Shown here: positions 7,975-60,513 of the stretch, one piece after another
How the letters are laid out: every line of letters starts with the position of its first letter
Position numbering within the stretch: position 1 is the first letter of the stretch
From: Cymbidium sinense
Lineage: Eukaryota; Streptophyta; Magnoliopsida; Asparagales; Orchidaceae
NCBI GenBank assembly: GCA_021442155.1
Contig: CM038228.1
Coordinates: 89,919,737-89,983,736 of the forward strand
Reading direction: 5' to 3'
DNA length: 64,000 nt
Translations under genes and position numbers: made by a program
Notes under the pieces: generated by a model
Databases searched by the model: none
What the model was told of the DNA's origin: nothing
The model's input: the letters and a program-made list of their open reading frames with translations, nothing else

Positions 7975-9840
7975 TAAAAATAAATTTAAATTAGATTCCT
8001 ATTGATTTTGATTTTAGAATTCAAAATTTGAACCCATACTCAACATCTTGAAAGTGTTAAGTTGGGCTCAAAATAATTTAGAATAGATTTTGAGATTTGA
8101 TTAGAAAGAGGAATTTTTGGATGTAGAATCCACTTTTGACAAATTTGGATATGTTGAAAATGGGTTCAAATATTTTTGAAGAGATGCTTCCATAGGTTCA
8201 TATTTGAATTTTAATTTTGATTTTAAGGACCCTTTATTTAACAAATTTGGTATGTTAAAGTAAAGGTCAATTTTATATTTTGATTTGTGATTTTGGGAAT
8301 TTACTCAGCAAATTTGGGTATGCTGAGTGAGATGTTTGAAAAAAAATTCTTCTTCTTTTTTCTTTGTTTGCTTTATTTTGTGAATCATTTGTGATTTGAA
8401 AAATGGAATTCTCATTTAGCAAATTTGGGTATGCTAAATGAGGAAATCCAAGTGTGTTTTATTTTTGGATATTTTTGAAAATAGGACTCTTAACAAATTT
8501 GAGTATACTAAGAAAATCCTAATGTGTTTCTTTTATTTTTAGAGGTTTTTATTTTGAAAAGTAGGATCCCTAGCAAATTTTAGCATGCTAAGAAAATCCT
8601 AATGTGTTTCTTTTGTTTTGGATTTTGATTGAAAATGAAGACCTCACTTTAGAAAATATGGTGTGCTAAAATGAAGTTTCAATGTATTTTAATTTTGTGA
8701 AATGGAAATTTCACTTAGAAAATTTAAGTATGCTAAAATAAATTCCAAAAATGTGTTTAAAATTTTTGTGTTTTGATTTTTTTTTTGAAAATGAAGTGTT
8801 CACTTTAGCAAATATGGTAAGCTAAAGAATGAAATCCCAAAAGTGTTTCTTGTTATTTTGGATTTTTGTCAAAAAAATGGAGACTTCACTTTAGCAAATG
8901 TGGTATTCTAAAATGAAGTTCCAATGTATTTTTGAAATTTTGTGAAATGGACATTTCACTTATCAAATTTGAGTGTGCTAAATGAGATTCCAAAAATGTG
9001 TTTCAAATTTTTGTTTTGGAAAAGGGAGACTTCATTTTAGCAAATGTGATATGCTAGAATGAAGTTTTAAATATATTATGAAAATTTTTGCTTTTGTTGA
9101 TTTTGAAAAGAGAGATTTCTATTTAACAAATTTGGGTATGTAAGATATATGTTTCATTTTTCCAAAGATGTATTTTGTGTGTGATTATTGCTTTTGAAAG
9201 AGGAAATTCTAACTAATCATTTATGGAATATGTTAAGTGGAGTTTAAAAAATAATATTATTTTATTTGGAAGTGAAATTTCCATTCAATAAATTTGGGTA
9301 TATTGAATGGAGATATTCATGTGCTTTTTAAATTTTTTTTTTTAATTTTGATTGAAAATGAAACCTCCATTCAATAAATGTCGGTATATTGAATGGAGAG
9401 GTTTCATATGTGCTTTTTGAAACTGTAAAAATTCCAACTTAACAAATGTGAAATGTGTTGAGTGGAATCTCAAAATTGTGATTTTACTTGAAGATGTAAC
9501 ATCCATCCAACATATTTGGATGTATTGAATGGAAAGGCCCATCTTTAAATTTTATGCTTTTGAAAACATGATAGTTGGAATTTTATTTTTGAAAATGAAG
9601 TCTTCATCAAAATGAATTGAGTGAAGAAGTTCGTTTGTGCTTTTTAGAAAATAATGAGTGTTGGTTTTATTTTTGAAATGTTTCTACATGTAATAATTGT
9701 GGAAAATTGTCAGATGTAGTGAAAATATTTTATTAAGTGTAGTTTAGTGCTTTTGAAAAGCAAATCTTTTATGAAGGATTTGTTTTATCTTTATTTTTGA
9801 AATGAACCTTTCCTTACCATAAAAAAATGATAAGGAGGAA
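7975..9840 (-). repeat. Leader array of about 20 covarying hairpins, element A
   Basis: Between upstream ORF and PBS, units of about 60-100 bp recur. Each contains an inverted repeat around a conserved core AATTTGGGTA (plus strand). Clear examples: 8303-8328 (ACTCAGCA / TGCTGAGT), 8411-8442 (CTCATTTAGCA / TGCTAAATGAG), 9280-9311 (TCCATTCAATA / TATTGAATGGA), 8228-8268 (16-bp arms), 9361-9404 (16-bp arms with a 2-nt bulge), 9029-9065. Loops are alike while arms differ and still pair. Some units have decayed arms (for example near 8700 and 9140). Seen directly in the sequence; function unknown. Confidence 0.75.
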
Positions 9841-10081: not shown

Positions 10082-10099
10082 TCCCCATCGGAGTTGCCA
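10082..10099 (-). other. Primer binding site, tRNA-Arg-like
   Basis: Read on the minus strand from 10099 to 10082: TGGCAACTCCGATGGGGA, ten bases downstream of the LTR end. It begins with TGG, the complement of tRNA CCA, and as far as I remember the 3' end of plant tRNA-Arg(ACG) it differs from a full complement at two positions. Tat/Ogre elements are known to use tRNA-Arg. Only element A still has a PBS in this window. Confidence 0.7.
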
Positions 10100-13830: not shown

Positions 13831-14612
13831 TATTTTGAAATGAAATTAACCCATTGGTTTCAATCAATTTGGCTTAGATCAAGTTTTGACACATTTTGAC
13901 TTTTAGGCCAAGTTGGGTCAACACAGGTCAAGTAATGGGCTATTAGGCTCAAATGTTGACTTGGTAAAGTTCAAAATTAGTCATGAATGAGTTTTGATCA
14001 ATGGTTTTAATGAATTTGGCCTATGGTGGATTTTGGCTATGTTGGGTTTCATTTTAGCTAAGTGTTGACTTGGTCAACCCTTAGGTTTGACTTGGTTTGA
14101 CCCAATTTGAGTGATTGATCATCTCATGATGATTGTTGGTCATGATGAGAGGCTTAGGTTGGCTTAGTTCAATCCAATTTGGTTAGGATTAGAACTTGGC
14201 TCATAAAGGGTACTTTAGGTCACTTTAGGTCACTTTAGGTCAAGTGAGCCTAAGTAGGTCAAATGGCTTGGTCAAAGCTTGATTTGAGTTTAATTAAACT
14301 CACATATGGACTTATGACTGAAATATAAATCCAGTTGCAAGTGGTTTAAAGTCAAATGGGTTTTGACTCATTTGATAATTTCAAGTTTAAAAGGGTGAAC
14401 ATGAGATTGACTTGGGTTTGATTTTTTGAATTGATTTTGGTTTGGTTGAAGTTTATGTTAATATTTGGATTCATTTTAGGGTTGATTGAATCATGAAGAA
14501 AAATCAAGGGTTTGGCATTTAAATTGAATTGGCTAAGTTCAAGATTTTGACTTGAAAGGCTTAGGTTAGATTTTGATTGAATGAGTTTGATTTTGGGGTT
14601 TGTTTTGTTTGA

Positions 14613-14980
14613 ATTTATATTTCATTTATATTTGTGAATATAAATGAGAATATAAATGGTTATGAAAATTTTATGAATTTGAAGTGATTTGAACTTGATT
14701 TAGGCTAAGTCCTTAAGGAATCAAAGTGACTTAGGAAAGATTTTTGATTTGGATTTAGTTTGATTGATTTGAATTTATATTTCATTTATACATGTGAATA
14801 TAAATGAGAATATAGAGTTGTGAAAATTTCTTGAATTTGAATTGATTTAGATTTGATTTAGACTAAGTCCATAAGAGGGAATCAAAGTGACTTAGAAAAG
14901 GTTTTTGATTTGGATTTAGTTTGATTGATTTGAATTTATATTTCATTTATTCATGTGAATATAAATGATAATATAGATGG
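14613..14980. repeat. Three AT-rich hairpins, about 160-bp period, LTR of A
   Basis: Three near-copies start at about 14613, 14773 and 14934. Each has a 20-base arm (begins ATTTATATTTCATTT), a loop of about four bases, and a complementary arm (AATATAAATGAGAATATAAA). The first pairs almost fully with a one-base bulge. Sequence between them is also repeated, giving a tandem array of about 160-bp units. Confidence 0.7.
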
Positions 14981-15711
14981 GTTGTGAGAAAATTTCATGA
15001 ATTTTAATTGATTTAGATTTGATTTAGGCTAAGTCCATGAGAGGGAATCTAAGGACTTAAGACATATTTTGACTTGGATTTTCAATGATTAGCTTCAATC
15101 ATTTATTTCAATCATGGATTTCAATCATTTAGAATTGATTTGAGTTTGGAGAAAATCAATTAAGTTGGAATTGATTTAAGTTTGACTTGAAGGAAGGAAG
15201 TGAGGAATTTGGTTCAAGCTATAGGGTAGGCAAATTTTCCTAACACCCTTAAGGAATGACCTATTCTTATGGCTAACTCTTCAAAGTCTCTAGGGTTAGA
15301 TTGAGTGTCCACCTAATCACTAGATGTATCTTAAGACTAAAGATCTCTTAAATTCTAAGAGAAGTCCTATGTCTAAGATGGAGGGGTTGAGAGCTCATCC
15401 TAAAAATGAGATCAACAATTTGCTCTAAATAATCATATTCAATAAGAAAGACATCTTAGGACTAATTAAGGTGAATTACTATCACATAACACAACCATTT
15501 ATTTCTTTCCAACATGTATACCATGCATATGAAAGATCCTAAACATAGCTATACATGCAATACACTTAGCACACTTTAATGATGAGTGTAAAGAGATTTT
15601 GTTTAAGAAAATTTAGATATTCCATGAATGCATGTTCTTATTAAGTAGAAAAAGAGGGACTCTTTTATCCATTAATCAAATACATATTTACATGTATAAA
15701 AGACATTAGTG

Positions 15712-21183: not shown

Positions 21184-22490
21184 GATGGACCCTGTCAATT
21201 TGTGATGGACTGCACTGAGTAGGGGTCATGTTGGTCTTGGTCTAGCTTAGATTTACCAATCCAAGGGGGTAGTCTACCAACCACGTAGTAGGACTATCCA
21301 AATAAAGGGGTTGCCTTTCGATATGCAGTAGTTGTACTAGGAAGAAAGCATAGTAGACTTACATCCTCCAAAATAGGGATCAGTCATTGGGGTGATCAAT
21401 TGGTGACACAACAAATCTAACTCAACCTGAGGCTGACTATTGGGTGAATGTCATTGGGGGACTCAAATCAGCTCAAAGAGTCAAAATTAATTTTATTTTT
21501 TGTTATGTTTGATGGATCCCATAGGTTTTTGATGGGCTGCACTGAGTAGGGGCCATGGTGCCTTGGCCTAATTTAGATTTACCAATCCAAAGGGAGTAGC
21601 TTCCAGACTGAGGGGGGAACTATCCGACCAAAGGGTGCCTTTCGGTTTGCAGCAGTTGATTCAGGGAAGAAAGCTCGGGGACTCACATCTTTCTTAAATA
21701 GAAGACCGCTATGGTGATTAGTTGGTGACACAATGAATCAAACCCAACTTGAGGCTGACTAATGAGTGAATGTCACTAGGGGACTTAAATCATCTCAAAG
21801 ATAGTCAAAATTAATTTCATTTTTTATTATGTTTGATGGATCCCATAGGTTTGTGATGGACTGCATTGAGTAGGGGTCATGTTGGCCTTGATCTACTTTA
21901 GATTTACCAATTCAAAGGGGTAGTCTTCCAACCACATAGTAGGACTATCCAACCAAAGGAGTGCCTTCCGGTTCATAGTGACCAATTCAGGGAAGAAAAT
22001 ATGGGGACTCACATCTTCCACTACAAAAGACCACTAGAGTGACACGTTAGTAAGGTAACATGTTAACCCGACCTAGGGCTAACTACTAAGTGAATGCTAC
22101 TAGGGGATTTAAATCAGCTCAAAGACAGTCATAGTTTATTTCATTTTTTTTAGTTATATTTAATGGATCCCATCAGTTTGCGATGGATTGCACTGAGTAA
22201 GGGCCATGGTTCCTTAGTCTAATTTGGATTTACCAATCCAAAGGGAGTGGCTTCCTGACCGAGAGGAGAACTATCCGACCAAAGGGTGCCTTTCAATTTG
22301 CAACAGTTAATTCAGGGAAGAAAGCTCAATGAATCACATTTTTCCTGAATAGAAGACTGCTGGGGTGACACATTAGCGAGGTAACATACCCGACCTAGGG
22401 TTGCCCATCAGTTGTGACAGTCATGCTAGAAAGAATGTGTAGTAGACTTACATCTTTCAAAGCATAATGACTATCTGGGTAACCTGTCTG
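21184..22490 (-). repeat. About 325-bp tandem repeats, 3' UTR of B
   Basis: Unit starts at 21184, 21511, 21835 and 22162 (spacing 327, 324, 327), each beginning with a form of GATGGATCCCAT then GATGGACTGCACTGAG and TTTACCAATCCAAAGG. A more diverged start is at about 22701. Element C carries units at 36034, 36357 and about 36672. Such 3' UTR repeats in Tat/Ogre elements are known sources of satellite DNA. Confidence 0.8.
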
Positions 22491-33920: not shown

Positions 33921-34758
33921 CGGCTAGGTTAGGTCTAGTTGGCCAATTGAGGCTTTGGTCAAGTTCAACAAGTGATTTAGAATGAACTTGACCCATTGGT
34001 TGCAATCAATTTGGCTTAGATCAAGATTTGACACATTTTGATTTTTTAGGTCAACTTGGGTCAAGTGGCCAATTGGGCTATGTTTGGCTCAAATGATGAC
34101 TTGGTCATGTTCAATCATTGATCATGAATTTATTTTGATCAATAGTTTCAATCAATTTGGCCTATGGTGGATTTTGGCTAGTTTGGGTTTCATTTTGGCT
34201 AAGTGTTGACTTGATCAACACCTAAGTTTGACTTGGTTTGACCTAATTTGAGTGATTGATCATATTATGATGATTATTGCTCACAATGTGAGGCTTAGGT
34301 GCGCTTAGTTCAATCCAATTTGGGCATGATTAGAATTTGGCTCAAAAAGGTGTTTTGGGTCACTTTGGGTCGAGTAAGCCTAAGTGGGTTAATTGACTTG
34401 ATCAAGGCTTGATCAAGTTTGGTTGAACTCACATATGGACTTATGATTGAAATATTAATCCATTTGAAAGTGATTTGGAGTCAAATGGGTTTTGATTCTT
34501 TGATAATCTCAAATTCAAAGAATGAACATGGGTTTGATTTGGGTTTGAATTTTGAATTTAGTTTTGGTTTGATGATTGAAGTTTGTGTTTATAGTTGGAT
34601 TCATGATAAAGGATTGATTGAATCATGAAAAAACAATCCAAGGGTTTGGATTGATTTGAGTTTGACTTGGCTAAGTTCAAGAATTTGACTTGAAAAAGCA
34701 TAGGTTGTTTTTAGGTTAGATTTGGGTTTGATTTTTGAATTTGGTTTTGGTTATTTGA

Positions 34759-34982
34759 ATTTATATTTCATTTATATTTGTGAATATAAATGAGAATATA
34801 AATGGTTTATGTGAAAATCTCTTAAGTTTGAATTGATTTGGGTTTGATTTGAGCTAAGTCCATAAGATGAAGTCCAAGTGACTTAGAAAAGGTTTTAGAT
34901 TTGGACTTAAGTTTTGGATTTGGTTTTGGTTATTTGAATTTATATTCTATTTATATTTGTGAATATAAATGAGAATATAAAT
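34759..34982. repeat. Two AT-rich hairpins, 179-bp spacing, 3' LTR of C
   Basis: Hairpins at 34759-34803 and 34938-34982 with the same arms as at 14613-14980; both still pair well. Confidence 0.7.
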
Positions 34983-35428
34983 GGGTTATGATAAAATCTC
35001 TTGAGTTTAAAGTGATTTGAATTTGATTTGAGCTAAGTCCATAAGATGGAATCAAAGTTTAGAAAAGATTTTGAATTTGGAATTAACTGGTTTCAATCAT
35101 TTGAAATTGATTCATGATTTGAGAAAATACATTGCAATTGATTTAAGGTTTATTTTAGAATTGGAGTTGATTTCAGTTTGAGGTTGATTTGAATTTGGAG
35201 TTTGATTTGAAAGAAGGAAGTGAGGATTTGATTCAAGCTATATGGTAGGCAAGTTTTCCTAACACCCCAACCTATTTCTATAGCTAACTCTTCTAAGTCT
35301 CTAGGGTTAGGTTAAGTGTTCACCTAATCACTAGAAGTGTCTTAAGACTAAGGAACTTTTAGTGTCTAAGAGGAGTCCTATGTCTAATATGGAGGAGTTG
35401 AGAGCTCATTCTAAAAATGAGGTCAATA

Positions 35429-38400
35429 AAGATCTCCTAATAGGTGTGGTGTGACTGACAAGGCATACCACATATTGGTTTTGACCAGATGATCAACAAC
35501 ACCAAATGATTACAAGCACTAATAAAAATGATCTACTCCTAACTTAAGGTGTAGAAGGAACCAAGAGCTTAGTGCAATGTGTCTCTACTCATGTCAAAGA
35601 CATAAGATCATGAAGGAGGAATCCGCTAGGGACTGAGTATATGAACTTTCCACTAAGAAAAAAAGCTCAAGTCATCCATTGGGGGATGAGAGGTTTGATT
35701 TGATTTGAGTCTCACTGAGGAGAGATTTGCTTTGATTGATTGATTTAGTGTTCGGTGCTCCACTAGGGATGAAAAAGTGAACTCTCCACTAGGGGAGCAA
35801 GTTCAAGTCATTCACTGGAGGAAAAAGAGGTTGTGAAATTCACTAAGAGATTAGAATTCGGGATCCACTAGGGAACCATAAAGACTTGCATCTCACTGAG
35901 AAGAAGCAGATTTATTTGATTTATTTTGATTATTTGGTTTAACTCCAATAGAGAGGAGGGTTGAATTTGTTTTAGATTACTCCACTGAGGAGGTTGATTG
36001 ATTTATTTCAGATATTTTTTTTTTGAATTTTGAGATAGACCTTGTTGGTTTGCGATGGACAACACTGAGTAGGGGCCATGTTGGCCTTGATCTAGCTCAG
36101 ATTTATCAATCTAAAGGGGTAGTCTACCAACCACATAGTAGGACTAACCAACCAAAGGGGTTCCTTTCAATTTGTAATAGTTAATTCAGGGAAGAAAGCA
36201 CAGGGGCTCGCATCTTTCTGAATAAAAGACCGCTGTGGTGACACATTAGCAAGATAACATGTTCCCAACCTAGGGCTGACTACTGAGTGAATGTCACTGG
36301 GGGGCTTAAATCAGCTCAAAGATAGTCAAGATTAATTTTATATTTTTAATCATTTTTTATGGATCCCATCAGTTTGCGATGGACTACACTGAGTAGGGGC
36401 CATGTAGGCCTTGATTTAATATAGATTTATCAATCCAAAGGAATTAGTTTCCCGGCTAAGGGGAGAACCATCCAACTAAAGGGGTGCCTTTCAATTTGCA
36501 ATGGTTAATTCAAGGAAAAAAGCACGGGGACTCACATCTTCCTAAATAAAAGATTGTTGGGTGACATGCAAGGTAATCAACCCAACCTAGGTCGAATAGA
36601 GTGAATGCCACTGGGGGGCTTAAATTAGCTCAAAGATAGTCAAGATTAATTTTATTTTTTTAATTATTTTTTATGGATCCCATCAGTTTGTGATGGACTA
36701 CACTGAGTAGAGGCCATGTAGGCCTTGATCTAACACAGATTTACCAATCCAAAGGGATTAGTTTCCCGATTGAGGGGAGAACTATCCAACCAAATAGGTG
36801 CCTTTTGGTTTACAACGGTTAATTCAGGGAAGAAAGAACGAGAACTCATGTCTTCTTGAATAAAATACCACTGGGGTGACATATAATTAAGGTAACATGT
36901 TAACCCGACTGAGGGCTGCCTGTCAGTTTATGACAGTCATGCTAGAAATAATGCATAGTAGACTTACATCTTTCAAAGCGAAATGACTGGGGTAACCTAT
37001 TTATGCAAATAGATTGAACCTGTCCTAATGGCGACTACTGAGAGAGTGCCAACTGGGACTTATCTCTACTCAAGAGTAGTCAAGAAATTCTTATAGGGAG
37101 TTCTGCTGACACTACCCTAAAGATAGGATGCCCGCTTGGAAAGGCTTGGGCTTAATTCCAAATCACAGAGAATTTATTTGTTTGTTTATCATAACCTATT
37201 TGTTAGAAATTATACAAGGAGCTTATATCGCCTCAATTATATCGCTTTTATCAACTGGAGAATGGAACAAATTCTCCAACCATATGGGTAGCTACTAAGA
37301 AAGGGGGGAGTGTCCAATCAAAGAGTAACCCAAGTATTGTCTAAATGGGGTCGCAAAGGACATGATCCAAATAGAATGCCTGTAGGGGAAGGGTCCACTA
37401 AGGGCTTTATCCAAAACCCTAGAGAAGATAATTTGCATAGGTATTCGGTGGACAACTCAAGGAGAAAGTACAGAGACTCATATCTACCAAAAGTGGTGTA
37501 TCCACCGGGTGAGTTGCTGTCAGCATAGCAAATATCAACCAACCTAAGGTGCTAGCTTTGCACAATCGCCTAGGAAGAAAGCATGGACTCACATCCTCCT
37601 ATAGAACTAGATTGTCGGGATAGTCTATCTTCGCTCAATAGTGCTATCCCACCTAGGCGACTACCGAAAGTGAATGCCACCGAGGGACTTAAATTAACTC
37701 AAGAGTAGTCAAGAGGAAAGGAGCCTCTGGGGGACTTATCCTAAACCTCAAATATACTCAACCTAGTCAGTGCATGGTGGTTAATTCAAGAAGAAAGTGC
37801 AGGGACTCGCATCTTCTTAAACAAAATCAACATGAGGTAGCTTATTGGCTGGGCACTAAAGCCTACCAAACTAAAAAGGAGCTTATTGGTTTGCAATAGT
37901 CATTTCAGGAAGAAAGTGTGGGGACTCACATCCACCAGCCAAGTGACCACTTGGGTGATCTACTAGCAAAGTTGTATGTTAGCCCGACCTAGAGAAGCTA
38001 ATGAGTGAGTTCCACAGGGGGATTTCTCGCACATCAAAGAAGCTCAAGATAAAAGATATGTGTTTATTTTTGTTTGTGTTTGAGATAGAAGGAATAGGAT
38101 GCCTCTCGAGTTATCTCACACCTACCCTAAACATGCTTGGGAATTGATGAAATGATGCCATGAATGGTAGTTAGGATTCCACCAAAAAAGGATGTCGCTT
38201 GGGATGTCTTACACCTAACTTAGTCGTGCTAGTCAAAATAGGATGCCTCTTAGATTCTCTTACACCTATTTTAGTAGTGTGGGGAAATCATGTTCAATTA
38301 TGTTTTTGTGAAAGAGGATAGATGCCTCTGGTCTCTTACACCTATCTAAACATGTCATGGATTCACAAAAAAAAAGTAGATAACACTTTGAATGAAGAAA

Positions 38401-39639: not shown

Positions 39640-40180
39640 GGTTGCCTCTAATCCGATCATCCTTTCAAACGATAACCTCCCTTCAAGAGAAAGTCTCGAG
39701 TTCAACGCCAATAAGGGATAGACATCTATTTTGGACCCTTATAATGGACTCATATTTTGACATGCCAATTCCTTGGCAAGTTTGGCCAAAGCATCTGCTT
39801 CTATTCCTCAGGGACCTTGTAGATGGTGACCTCAAGATTTGGGCCAACAACTTCATGGTATACCATGGTAATGATGCTTGGGTTTGAGAACCCAGGACCC
39901 GAATTTGGTTGATGAACAACTGAGAGTCCCCATAGATATTGATGCTTTTAACACACATTGTAATGGCTAACTCTAGTCCTGTAATCTAAGCCTTATACTC
40001 AGCTTCGTTGTTGGTGCATAGATTGGAGAGATAGTATGAGAATCTCATCACATTGCGATCTATGGTTAACAGAATTATTCTACCCCTATCTTTCTTGGAA
40101 GAGTAGATCGTGGTTCTTCTCCTTTATGAAAGGAAGTTGTACCATCAAAATACTTCTCCCAACAGTGGTTGTCAACCTCC
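39640..40180 (-). pseudogene. Second RNase H (aRH), element C
   Basis: YFDGTTSF at about 40160-40140 supplies the first Asp; the open piece 39958-39683 begins MCVKSINIYGDSQLFINQIR, which gives the later Asp and the QLFINQI helix typical of aRH. The Glu-bearing piece between is in another frame. Same layout as in A. Confidence 0.65.
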
Positions 40181-40750
40181 CTAAGTTCATTATTTGTTTG
40201 TGGATCATCACTCCGGAGAGTCAGGAAGTGGGTGTACTAAGAAATAGTCCTTTAACCACTTAGGGTACAATGTGATATCAAACTGAGAAAAATCATGGAC
40301 CAACATGCCAAACATCCGGATAATGTCAGCCATGTCATGAGAAACTATAGTGGATTGATTCTTGAAATCAAGTTCACCTTATGAGAAAGCATATAGTGTC
40401 ATAGCTTTAGGATGCAAAGATTAAAGCTAGGCAATATTTCTTAATAGGTGGGTAGTTCACTTCAGTGGGGATCAAATGATAGCTGAGGTAGTAGTGAGCA
40501 TTCTCCTTCTCTTCATCATTGGCTTGGGCCAACAAAGTGCCAAGGGAGTCATCCAATGTAGCTGTGTAAACGATCAATGGCCCCGCCTGGATAGTCGGAA
40601 CCGGTGGTTTCACCAACACCGCTGATATCTTCAAAGGAATGCTGGCACTTGTCATCCCTCTTGAACTTGGCATCCTTTTTGACAAGTGCTAAAATTGGTT
40701 TGCCTCTCCCTGATAAGTTGGAGATAAAGCATCTTAGATATGCCAACTTA
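40181..40750 (-). pseudogene. First RNase H (RH1), element C
   Basis: Open 40685-40407 contains LIVYTATLDDSLGTLLAQAN, ENAHYYLSYHLIP, NYPPIKKYCLALIFAS. This is the RH1 fold that follows RT, with YTAT where TDAS would be. 40746-40549 overlaps in another frame and gives MAYLRCFISNLSGRGKPI, the RT-RH junction. Confidence 0.75.
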
Positions 40751-41055: not shown

Positions 41056-41187
41056 CATTCTTATGAGGAGAAGGATCAAACTAATCAGCTAAGACTTATG
41101 ACTCCTATTGTATATATAGAAAGATTTATTCAATAATGTGCATGGTTGATAGATTTGAGTTTAGCTTTTAAAAAAGAGATATTATAT

Positions 41188-41284
<97 letters not shown>

Positions 41285-45300: not shown

Positions 45301-46655
45301 CGATTTGTTCATCCTTTGCTTTAATTGAAGGAGGTGTTGGTAGTCGGTCCCGCTTGGTTGCATCACCTTCAAACGATCATGAAGGAGAACCCCCAGATCT
45401 ACCATGTGCACTCCTTGAATCCTCCAATCATCATCTTCATTAGATCAAAATTGACCTTCTCATCCTCTAACCAGATATCCTGATCTTCTTCTTCCACACA
45501 TCTTACAATGTCATCTAGGATTGGTCCAACTAACAGTATAAAAAAGATCGAGGTCGACCATAGGATCACTATCATGAGATCTAACCTCCCTCTAAGGGAT
45601 CTTGGACTATGCTCACCAGAGAGGATGCTTCATCGATCTGGGTGGAGTGGTACTCTAGGAGGATCTATGGAGACAAATGGTATTATCTCCTCTACTACTA
45701 TCTCCATAACCTGCTGTGGTGGTGGTGGTGATGGAATGACTACTATACTTCAAGGTTGTCATTCCTTCTTCACCATAACTAGGGTAGAAGGTCGAGCAGA
45801 AGAGCTCAGCCTCACCTCAGTATGAAGTGTAGATGGAATGAGATTTCTTGGCTATAATCGGATCACTAGTAGGGCTATCTTCTCCCCAGATGCAGCCTTC
45901 ATGGCTTCTGCTGGAACAGTAGATGATGGAACTTGTACCAGAGATGGTGGGCGTGGAGTAGAGCAATGTGTGGAGGCACCACCAACTCTCTCTGAGTAGG
46001 AGCTCCTCTCTTAAGATGGGTAGTACCCATCAATAAAATGCTCTCAGTATGATCGATAAAAGCAGGATGGAAAGTCCATGAGGGTGAAATCAAGGCGTAT
46101 ACCCACGCCTCCCTCGCTAGTAATCTTGACTGATACCTAAGCCTCCCTAGCCCTCTCCTATCTAATGTACTTCATATGTACTTCCTCTTCTATAGACTGG
46201 GAAACTACCTCGAGCTCCTTCATTATGAGAGTATGATATCGCTTGATCATGTGGTTCTATTTTTCTTGAGTCCTGTGGGACGAGCAGTGAACTAGCCACT
46301 CAGGTAGCAGATAATCCTAATTAGGGTGAGCCTTCCCCTTGGAAGCCAACGAGTGGGTACTAGCCCATACTAGGGCAGAAAGGGGAACCATTGAGCACAC
46401 TGGCACTATAACTACTTATGCTATGGGAACTACCACAACCTTCCTCTTCAGTGAGGGAAACTCTAAGTAAGATGGCATCTCAACTGGATGATGCATCACC
46501 ACGCCTCACTGGCTTGTGAGGTCCCTCACAAGTGATCTTAGCCCCTCAAAACCTCCAAAATGAATGAGGTGGGTGAAGTCGATGGGAGGTTGGCCCAAGG
46601 GCCAAATCCATCCCAAAGGAAATAGTCACGCATTTCTATGTTGCCATTTGAATGA
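45301..46655 (-). pseudogene. Upstream ORF before gag, element C
   Basis: Counterpart of 6226-7908. NHMIKRYHTLIMKE at about 46255-46215 matches A's NHMIKWYHTCIARV. The start ATG at about 46648 is followed by TAG as fourth codon, as in A. Product unknown. Confidence 0.5.
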
Positions 46656-46739
46656 ACTGAACTAAATTGAACTAAACTAAACTGACTGAAATAGACTGAA
46701 AGTCTACAATGTTGAAAATAAGTTTGAATCAGATTTCTA

Positions 46740-47692
46740 CTTTAATTCATTTTTTAGAATTTGAACCCACACTCAACAATTTGAATATGTTAAGTGGGGC
46801 TCTTTGATTTTGGAGAGATTTTGAATTTAGAATTGGTAAGGAGATTTTTGGATCTAGAATCCATTTTCAACAAATTTGTGTATGTTGAAAATGGGTTCAA
46901 ATATTTTCGGAGAGAGATTGATGCTTCCATAGGTTCATATTTGATTTTGATTATTGATTGTTTGGGGACCCTTCATTTAACAAATTTTAGTATATTAAAG
47001 TAAAGGGTCAATTGATTTTGTATAGATTTGTGATTTTGGAATTTACTTACTTAGCAAATTTGGGTATGCTAAGTGAGGTGTTTGAAAATAATTTTCTTCT
47101 TCTTTTGCTTGTTTGTGAATCATGTGTGAATTTTGAAAATGAAATCTTCACTTAGCAAATTTGGGTATGCTAAATGAAGAATCCAAAAGCTTTGTTATTT
47201 TTGAAAAGAGAATTCTTTTACTTAGCAAATTTGGGTATGCCAAATAAATGATCCAAATGTGTTTTATTTTTGATGATTTTGAAAAGAGTATTCTTAGCAA
47301 ATTTAGGTATGCTAAAGAAATCCAATTGTGTTTTTGTTTTTGATGATTTTGAAAAGAGGATTCTTTACTTAGCAAATTTGGGTATGCTAAATAAAGGATC
47401 CAAATGTATTGTTTTGATTTTATTTTATTTTATTTTTTTTTATTTTTTGAAAAGAGGATTCTTAGAAAATTTAGGTATGCTAAATGAAGAATCCAAATGT
47501 GTTTTTGTTTTTGATGATTTTGAAAAGAGGATTCTTTACTTAGAAAATTTGGGTATGTTAAATAAAGGATCCAAATGTATTTTGTTTTGGTTTTTTTTTT
47601 TTTTTGGAAAGAGGTTTCTTAGCAATTTAAGTATGTTAAATGAAGAATCCAAGTGTATTTGATTTTTGTGATTTTGATCTAGAAAAGAGGAT
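46740..47692 (-). repeat. Leader hairpin array, element C (about 11 units)
   Basis: Same array as 7975-9840. 46857-46898 has 16-bp arms (GAATCCATTTTCAACA / TGTTGAAAATGGGTTC), 47049-47074 reads ACTTAGCA / TGCTAAGT around AATTTGGGTA. The latter differs from its partner in A by a matched C-to-T and G-to-A pair. Later units (47215 to 47640) are alike, at 70-80 bp spacing, which suggests recent local duplication. Cut off by the inverted LTR at 47693. Confidence 0.75.
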
Positions 47693-60282: not shown

Positions 60283-60479
60283 TGAATTTATATTTCATTT
60301 ATATTTGAATATAAATGAGAATATGAATGATTATAGAAAATCTGAATTTGAATTGATTTGATTTGATTTGGCTAAGATAAGAAAGTGACTTAGGAAAGAT
60401 TTTTTATTTGGATTTGAATTTTGATTTAGTTTGATTGAATTGAATTTTTATATATTATATATATATATATATATTTTAT

Positions 60480-60513
<34 letters not shown>

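Follow-up and report, generated by a model that had tools for sequence, protein, structure and literature searches.

A repeated, covarying stem-loop in the leader of Tat/Ogre-like retrotransposons of Cymbidium sinense

Introduction

What keeps the two arms of a short inverted repeat complementary when both arms change from one repeat unit to the next? The question is raised by a 64,000-nucleotide (nt) stretch of Cymbidium sinense DNA (GenBank assembly GCA_021442155.1, contig CM038228.1, positions 89,919,737 to 89,983,736 of the forward strand), referred to below as the window. Here the leader of a decayed long terminal repeat (LTR) retrotransposon on the minus strand, element 1, carries a tandem array of such repeats between its primer binding site (PBS) side and the side of its first open reading frame (ORF1). 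An initial annotation, made from the sequence alone, had described about 20 hairpins with a fixed loop and had attributed their changing but complementary arms to selection on structure.

The classification of Tat elements is treated in PMC6317226, and hypervariable tandem repeats in the 3' untranslated region (3'UTR) are described for Tat/Ogre/Retand elements in the accessible text of PMC7004042 and PMC11963269 (Macas 2009 as cited there). Those repeats, too, are degenerate, arranged in tandem, located in noncoding sequence of Tat-type elements and present in many genome copies, but the array studied here lies at the 5' side, from the PBS side to the ORF1 side, and consists of covarying hairpins; the same accessible text mentions no hairpins in the 3'UTR repeats. 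A hairpin array in a Tat leader was not found described in the parts consulted of the open PMC literature, a scope that leaves subscription papers such as Macas 2009 outside.

Results

Layout of the array, its units and its loop

The array is present in element 1 and, further right in the window, in a second element of the same order, element 2. The features concerned are as follows.

7990..9840, minus strand: array of about 20 stem-loops in the element 1 leader, defined by folds and loop cores
8130..9534, minus strand: 16 loop-anchored units with a shared core (cores between 8138 and 9526)
8023..8056, minus strand: extra stem-loop closest to the ORF1 side, defined by its fold and homologous to 46767-46799
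46754..47690, minus strand: second array copy, in element 2, with 10 loop-anchored units and one further unit at 46767-46799

In plus-strand coordinates the 16 cores of element 1 start at 8138, 8240, 8307, 8418, 8492, 8572, 8651, 8717, 8807, 8893, 8962, 9039, 9125, 9287, 9373 and 9509. With the stem-loop at 8023-8053 and weaker stem-loops near 9199, 9435, 9600, 9684 and 9811, the total comes to about 20, so the number first proposed was borne out. The stems singled out in the initial annotation were recovered at 8303-8328, 8411-8442, 9280-9311 and 8228-8268; at the last of these the arms are indeed 16 nt long, but they contain mismatches.

Each unit consists of a stem of about 7-17 base pairs and a conserved loop of 9-10 nt, in the sense orientation UACNNAAAUU and most commonly UACCCAAAUU. 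The ten element 2 units between 46869 and 47637 carry the same core as those of element 1, and the core shared by all 26 units reads, in the sense orientation and with variation, AGCA-UACCCAAAUU-UGCU. The loop is conserved rather than fixed, since its exact form AATTTGGGTA occurs in only 4 of the 16 element 1 units; across the 62 arrays described below, its sense form TACCCAAATT ranks first and accounts for 241 of 1086 loop occurrences. Pairwise identity of the units is 0.81 in the loop, 0.72-0.73 in the inner arms, 0.42-0.44 in the flanks and 0.35-0.38 in the outer arms. The outer arms are thus the least conserved part and are paired all the same, which was counted in favour of pairing, and not stem sequence, being kept.

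A covariance model built from the 26 units recovers all of them, by construction. On the minus strand at E ≤0.1 it gives one additional match, the unit at 46767-46799 (E 0.035), which was not used to build it, and the best match outside both arrays has an E-value of 0.39. At gathering score, Rfam gave 0 matches in the window or in 5 of the 60 genome loci fetched. An antisense open frame of 136 amino acids (47252-47659, plus strand) runs across the repeat units and is likely a by-product of the repeat and no gene.

Pairing and covariation within the window

The pairing and covariation tests on the window used the 16 and 10 loop-anchored units of elements 1 and 2 and left out the weaker stem-loops. 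Over 12 pairs in 26 units, 234 of 312 cells are complementary, as against a mean of 182.5 (standard deviation, sd, 7.5) with permuted arms, and none of 20,000 permutations reached 234; the claim that the arms change yet stay complementary therefore held. Element 1 by itself gives 145 of 192 cells (reached by 0 of 20,000 permutations) and element 2 gives 89 of 120 (reached by 151 of 20,000). Standard pairs occupy 83.0% of cells in the true register, and at most 48.2% when the partner is slid by 1-3 columns. The number of strict hairpins at 7975-9840 is in modest excess over 30 dinucleotide shuffles at a score of at least 8 (7 vs. a mean of 2.8 and a maximum of 8) and in clear excess at a score of at least 11 (4 vs. 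a mean of 0.13 and a maximum of 1). Corresponding units of the two elements illustrate the exchange of whole pairs: units 8307 and 47053 differ by a single exchanged pair (CTCAGCA/TGCTGAG vs. CTTAGCA/TGCTAAG), and units 8418 and 47154 by another exchanged pair together with one further one-sided change.

The covariation score of the 26 units is 0.446, compared with at most 0.188 for slid pairs and 0.248 (sd 0.021) for shuffles. A phylogenetic null was obtained with an R-scape-like script of our own, not R-scape itself, in which the parsimony substitutions of each branch were replayed at random columns. Against this null (mean 0.09, sd 13.7, maximum 41.0 of 400), the summed stem statistic of the 26 units is 80.8. 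Only 1 of 14 pairs is significant singly, and the strength of the 26-unit result therefore sits in the helix as a whole. When 160 of 1101 units from the genome copies were kept, all less than 72% identical to each other, the summed stem statistic was 174.5 (null 0.4, sd 27.0, maximum 93.7 of 150). In this set stem pair 3 is the strongest of all 2485 column pairs, and 3 of the 14 stem pairs have E <0.05. The third pair from the loop is itself variable in the 26 units (G-C 14, A-U 8, G-U 1, unpaired 3). With slid registers run as controls in both sets, the helix covaries beyond phylogenetic nulls, which is what the covariation test for a structured RNA element looks for and the outcome on which the initial annotation had made its proposal depend.

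Copies across the genome and coupled change of the arms

The 18-nt core with at most 2 mismatches occurs 76,093 + 74,881 times (about 151,000) in the 3.53-Gb genome, whereas the same core read backwards occurs 20 + 19 times. Sixty loci were fetched, and with the two arrays of the window they make up the 62 arrays; the 60 are not a random sample, as all come from one contig (C1), out of 100 places listed, each with an exact core. The arrays contain 5 to 28 anchored units, with a median of 18. The loop anchor used here is lax, with a mean of 10.4 places per locus on the opposite strand; part of the 1101 units may therefore be chance matches, whose expected effect is to weaken the signal. Over the first 20 loci, 315 units were found by the covariance model and 398 by the anchor, and the median spacing is 68.5-87 nt. 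Watson-Crick pairing within the 309 distinct units of these loci is 68%, compared with 51% after permutation (maximum of 2000: 53.5%). The ORF1 side lies downstream of the array in 53 of the 62 copies and the PBS side upstream in 47, both in 41, and two flank matches are misplaced. The array thus lies between the PBS and the first ORF, as first proposed.

Coupled change was counted between aligned copies, after removal of self hits, of alignments shorter than 400 columns, of query units in which fewer than 9 of the 12 positions pair, and of comparisons at a divergence of 0.3 or more. In three bins from 0.1 to 0.3 flank divergence, double changes at stem pairs are 1.84, 2.12 and 2.21 times expectation (slid pairs 0.77-1.29). 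Of the 5752 double changes in the bin of greatest divergence, 4024 yield a Watson-Crick pair, as against 512-853 of 1925-2602 at slid pairs. Each locus pair may count in both directions, and disjoint matchings of about 25 locus pairs each were therefore used. Random matchings of this kind give a ratio of 2.24 (2.5-97.5%: 1.85-2.66), the slid registers averaging 0.97-1.19, and in 300 of 300 the true register came out highest. At divergences under 0.1 the number of double changes behind the ratios is small (4, 15 and 23), and the ratios for slid versions scatter from 0 to 9.

Pairing also follows the sharing of units: it is 90% in the 8 units found in at least 5 loci, 79% in the 62 found in at least 3, 71% in the 82 found in two and 66% in the 699 confined to a single locus, a trend to be read with the caveat that a shared unit is by definition a less mutated one. 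The inner arms (positions 1-4) evolve at 1.10-1.21 times the rate of the spacer between copies with less than 10% spacer divergence and at 0.58-0.63 times beyond 15%, and arm positions 9-12 stay at 0.91-1.16 times the spacer rate. At less than 6% divergence, both partners have changed in 19 of 6683 stem pairs, and in 11 of these the result is a Watson-Crick pair. The 15 unit comparisons listed (reciprocals included) show, by eye, mostly whole-unit differences and not isolated repairs. Taken together, the sharing trend, the fall in the rate of arm positions 1-4 and the whole-unit double changes favour selection in the propagating lineage. The data fit selection on pairing in propagating copies, followed by decay.

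The elements carrying the array

The window holds nested, decayed copies of related Ty3/gypsy-type elements in both orientations, and no complete stop-to-stop frame of at least 150 amino acids was found in it. Element 1 has the minus-strand order LTR, PBS-like site, leader, ORF1-side region and gag piece. The order in element 2 is the same, with its leader at about 46640-47690, and another LTR insertion cuts its array and leader at about 47691.

about 10110, minus strand: 3' end of the element 1 LTR, where homology among three LTR copies ends
10082..10099, minus strand: PBS-like site TGGCAACTCCGATGGGGA, placed by reading; a similar site lies 5' of the array in loci L015 and L027
5591..6028, minus strand: gag piece of element 1 (PF03732, E 0.0051, 17.5 bits, below the cut-off of 24.1)
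40410..40688, minus strand: RNase H piece of element 2 (PF17919, RT_RNaseH_2, 36.1 bits, cut-off 29.8)

The PBS-like sites differ among copies (TGGCAACTCCGATGGGGA in element 1, TGGCAACTCTGATGGGGA in L015 and a shorter form in L027), and a strict pattern found the site in 3 of 22 sequences. The variation concerns the flanks of 40 of the 62 arrays, and L015 and L027; an Ogre-type PBS would be complementary to tRNA-Arg. A Dendrobium catenatum protein is 66% identical to the element 1 gag piece, a match that by itself points to a probable monocot host close to the orchids. A piece 72% identical to the same gag is also encoded on a 396-base contig assigned to Klebsiella pneumoniae, probably through plant contamination of that assembly.

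The RNase H piece lies on the minus strand and therefore fixes the sense of element 2. A neighbouring copy at 26109-26426 matches RVT_1, a reverse transcriptase (RT) family, with 57 bits (cut-off 29.6). As judged from these protein matches, gag and then RT/RNase H follow the leader, the order of a Ty3/gypsy LTR retrotransposon. The piece at 39686-39985 (minus strand) was placed between RNase H and integrase and has no Pfam matches; it may resemble aRH, the second RNase H that marks the Tat clade. Elements 1 and 2 are regarded as decayed Ty3/gypsy elements, probably of Tat/Ogre-like type.

Other repeats of the window comprise 324-bp and 314-bp tandem arrays (21199-22368 and 36048-36879, minus strand) flanked by LTR-like and pol-like sequence, which is where the 3'UTR repeats of Tat/Ogre elements usually lie. 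Tandem repeats of 161 bp and 179 bp with similar consensus units lie in LTR-like sequence (14608-15081 and 34716-35086), and AT/TA microsatellites at 41179-41284 and 60449-60513 were excluded from the hairpin counts. The identity of the hairpin array itself as a Tat/Ogre 3'UTR repeat, which would lie between pol and the 3' LTR, was ruled out because the array is upstream of ORF1/gag, with the two flanks correctly ordered in 41 of the 62.

No relatives outside the genome were found in viral contigs (DNA pattern, RT or gag pieces) or in genome contigs (gag alignment). The sole match of a two-core pattern in genome contigs, a Treponema record, proved to be a stretch of unrelated G-rich repeats.

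Discussion

The data above show the structure of the hairpin array, its leader position, the coupled evolution of its arms and its presence across this abundant Tat/Ogre-like family. We hypothesize that pairing and loop, not stem sequence, were kept in the propagating copies and that the array serves multivalent binding in the genomic RNA. We place this reading first, at slightly less than even confidence. The hairpins with their common loop would form a platform for such binding, and the putative ligand would most likely be the element's own Gag, whose binding may single out full-length RNA for packaging; after Gag, the candidate to consider is a host RNA-binding protein. Retroviral packaging signals are usually located between the PBS and the gag side, and the corresponding position of the array, flanked by the PBS side and the ORF1 side in 41 of 62 copies, was counted for a packaging-type role. 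The more specific proposal, that a hairpin of similar loop, repeated up to about 28 times per leader, is recognized collectively by Gag or a host protein while its stems drift and pairing is kept, is possible but rather doubtful. Such a platform, if real, would be a natural counterpart of the engineered MS2-hairpin array.

Several observations weigh against this reading. Two of the five measures applied to the 26 units do not exceed shuffles: the number of pairs with a double change (9) was reached by 92 of 500 shuffles and that of further pair types (21) by 314 of 500. Moreover, 7 of the 14 stem pairs show no covariation alone in the 160 diverged units. Selection on sense RNA would tilt mismatches to G-U over A-C, and no such preference was found in the first 20 loci or the 62 arrays: there are 212 G-U and 215 A-C mismatches at pairs 2-11 of the first 20 loci, 40 and 35 in units of at least 3 loci, and 595 and 631 in private units. 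The wobble counts of the 26 window units (25 vs. 19) are likewise without bias, and the RNA level is therefore not supported by the mismatches. The fold energy is lower in the sense orientation in only 15 of 34 units, with similar means on the two strands (-12.4 and -12.7). The loop rate does not fall with depth (0.41, 0.61 and 0.53 of the spacer rate in close copies; 0.70, 0.70 and 0.63 in distant ones), and as the loops served as anchor, their constraint comes partly from the way the units were chosen. Finally, units are often exchanged, and the number of close copies is small.

Folding of the leader strand, one of the checks proposed in the initial annotation, gave a divided answer. Window z-scores are lower in the sense orientation (means -2.28 and -2.45) than in the antisense (-1.04 and -0.38) or in 115 control windows (-0.78 and -0.76), but the unit energies do not follow. 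Since the antisense null is G/T-rich, from which the lower sense z-scores may stem, and the unit energies are alike, this difference was not taken as proof of RNA function. Selection on structure, as originally claimed, is thus supported by covariation beyond nulls and slid pairs, and its placement at the RNA level is not, given the balanced mismatches and energies. We still infer an RNA role because of the position of the array, its freely drifting arms and the fact that we know of no DNA palindrome site whose arms drift like these.

The same data have to be weighed under other explanations. It is unlikely, in our judgement, that the pairing is unselected and that templated correction, for example through self-priming or strand switching during reverse transcription, maintains the likeness of the palindromes together with whole-unit exchange and duplication. 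Whole-unit differences between close copies, evident tandem duplication and the lack of strand preference in the mismatches all agree with such a process. However, double changes are few at less than 6% divergence, in what is a small set of close copies, and private units are less paired than shared ones, the opposite of what ongoing correction would give, with the above caveat on shared units. Selection at the DNA level, which we consider quite unlikely, would make each unit a dyad or cruciform-prone site for a dimeric or architectural DNA-binding protein and the array a leader enhancer or insulator, comparable to the Su(Hw) array in Drosophila gypsy. The missing strand preference suits this explanation too. 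In the portion consulted of PMC2374998, the gypsy sites are also clustered in an AT-rich array in the 5' untranslated region, and the unit core partly resembles theirs, GCATACCC fitting the last eight positions of the site consensus. There, according to the same portion, a zinc-finger protein binds a DNA sequence, whereas here the matching core bases swap as pairs. The third pair from the loop varies and is the strongest covarying one, so that the GCATA core is not what is kept, and a gypsy-type array with a conserved core was rejected for this reason. Freely drifting arms would be unusual for a DNA site, and that Su(Hw) is, to our knowledge, not known from plants was also counted against this explanation.

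Two further possibilities concern the fate of the transcript. The array might act on translation or RNA processing by blocking scanning, by aiding shunting or internal entry to ORF1, or by being spliced out, to which we give a low probability. The leader is about 2 kb long and each array has about 20 sense ATGs (1156 over 58 arrays, where dinucleotide composition predicts 1446.5, a ratio of 0.80), which makes simple scanning to ORF1 unlikely, and the array may also bear on how ORF1 is reached; known shunt structures, on the other hand, consist of one large hairpin after a short upstream open reading frame and not of many small ones. That the hairpins are small-RNA precursors is very improbable. 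Repeated stem-loops in a leader carried by the genomic transcript would suit such a role, but most scored stems, at 7-17 nt with mismatches, fall below the usual Dicer-like substrates, and the arms vary too fast to hold a target.

The array combines features of two known kinds: tandem repetition within an untranslated region of a Tat element, and structure in the leader of a retroelement. In the accessible part of PMC4974528, Ty1 likewise has structure near the 5' end of its genomic RNA, the site of packaging and priming signals, but its leader forms one compact fold, whereas the array studied here consists of a single small hairpin in many repeats; the same part gives the Ty3 RNA structure as uncharacterised as of 2016. 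Gypsy_Pa_2799 is likewise an orchid element, nested in Tat, sister to Ogre and with large LTRs, and the gag found here is nearest to a Dendrobium protein; that element is described for an added 2-ODD (ALKBH-type) domain, and the text of PMC9289625 available to us does not mention a leader array.

If the DNA-level or the mutational explanation were true, clear covariation would arise here without RNA structure, which would call for caution in covariation screens. Little is known about how plant Ty3/gypsy elements select their genomic RNA for packaging or separate it from translation. Tat-type leaders, besides 3'UTRs, can carry tandem arrays, here under structural constraint, and the leader hairpins, at about 20 per leader, provide a concrete and testable cis-element in an abundant family. 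If their proposed collective recognition is real, they would represent a packaging or RNA-condensation signal of a kind that we have not seen described for LTR elements.
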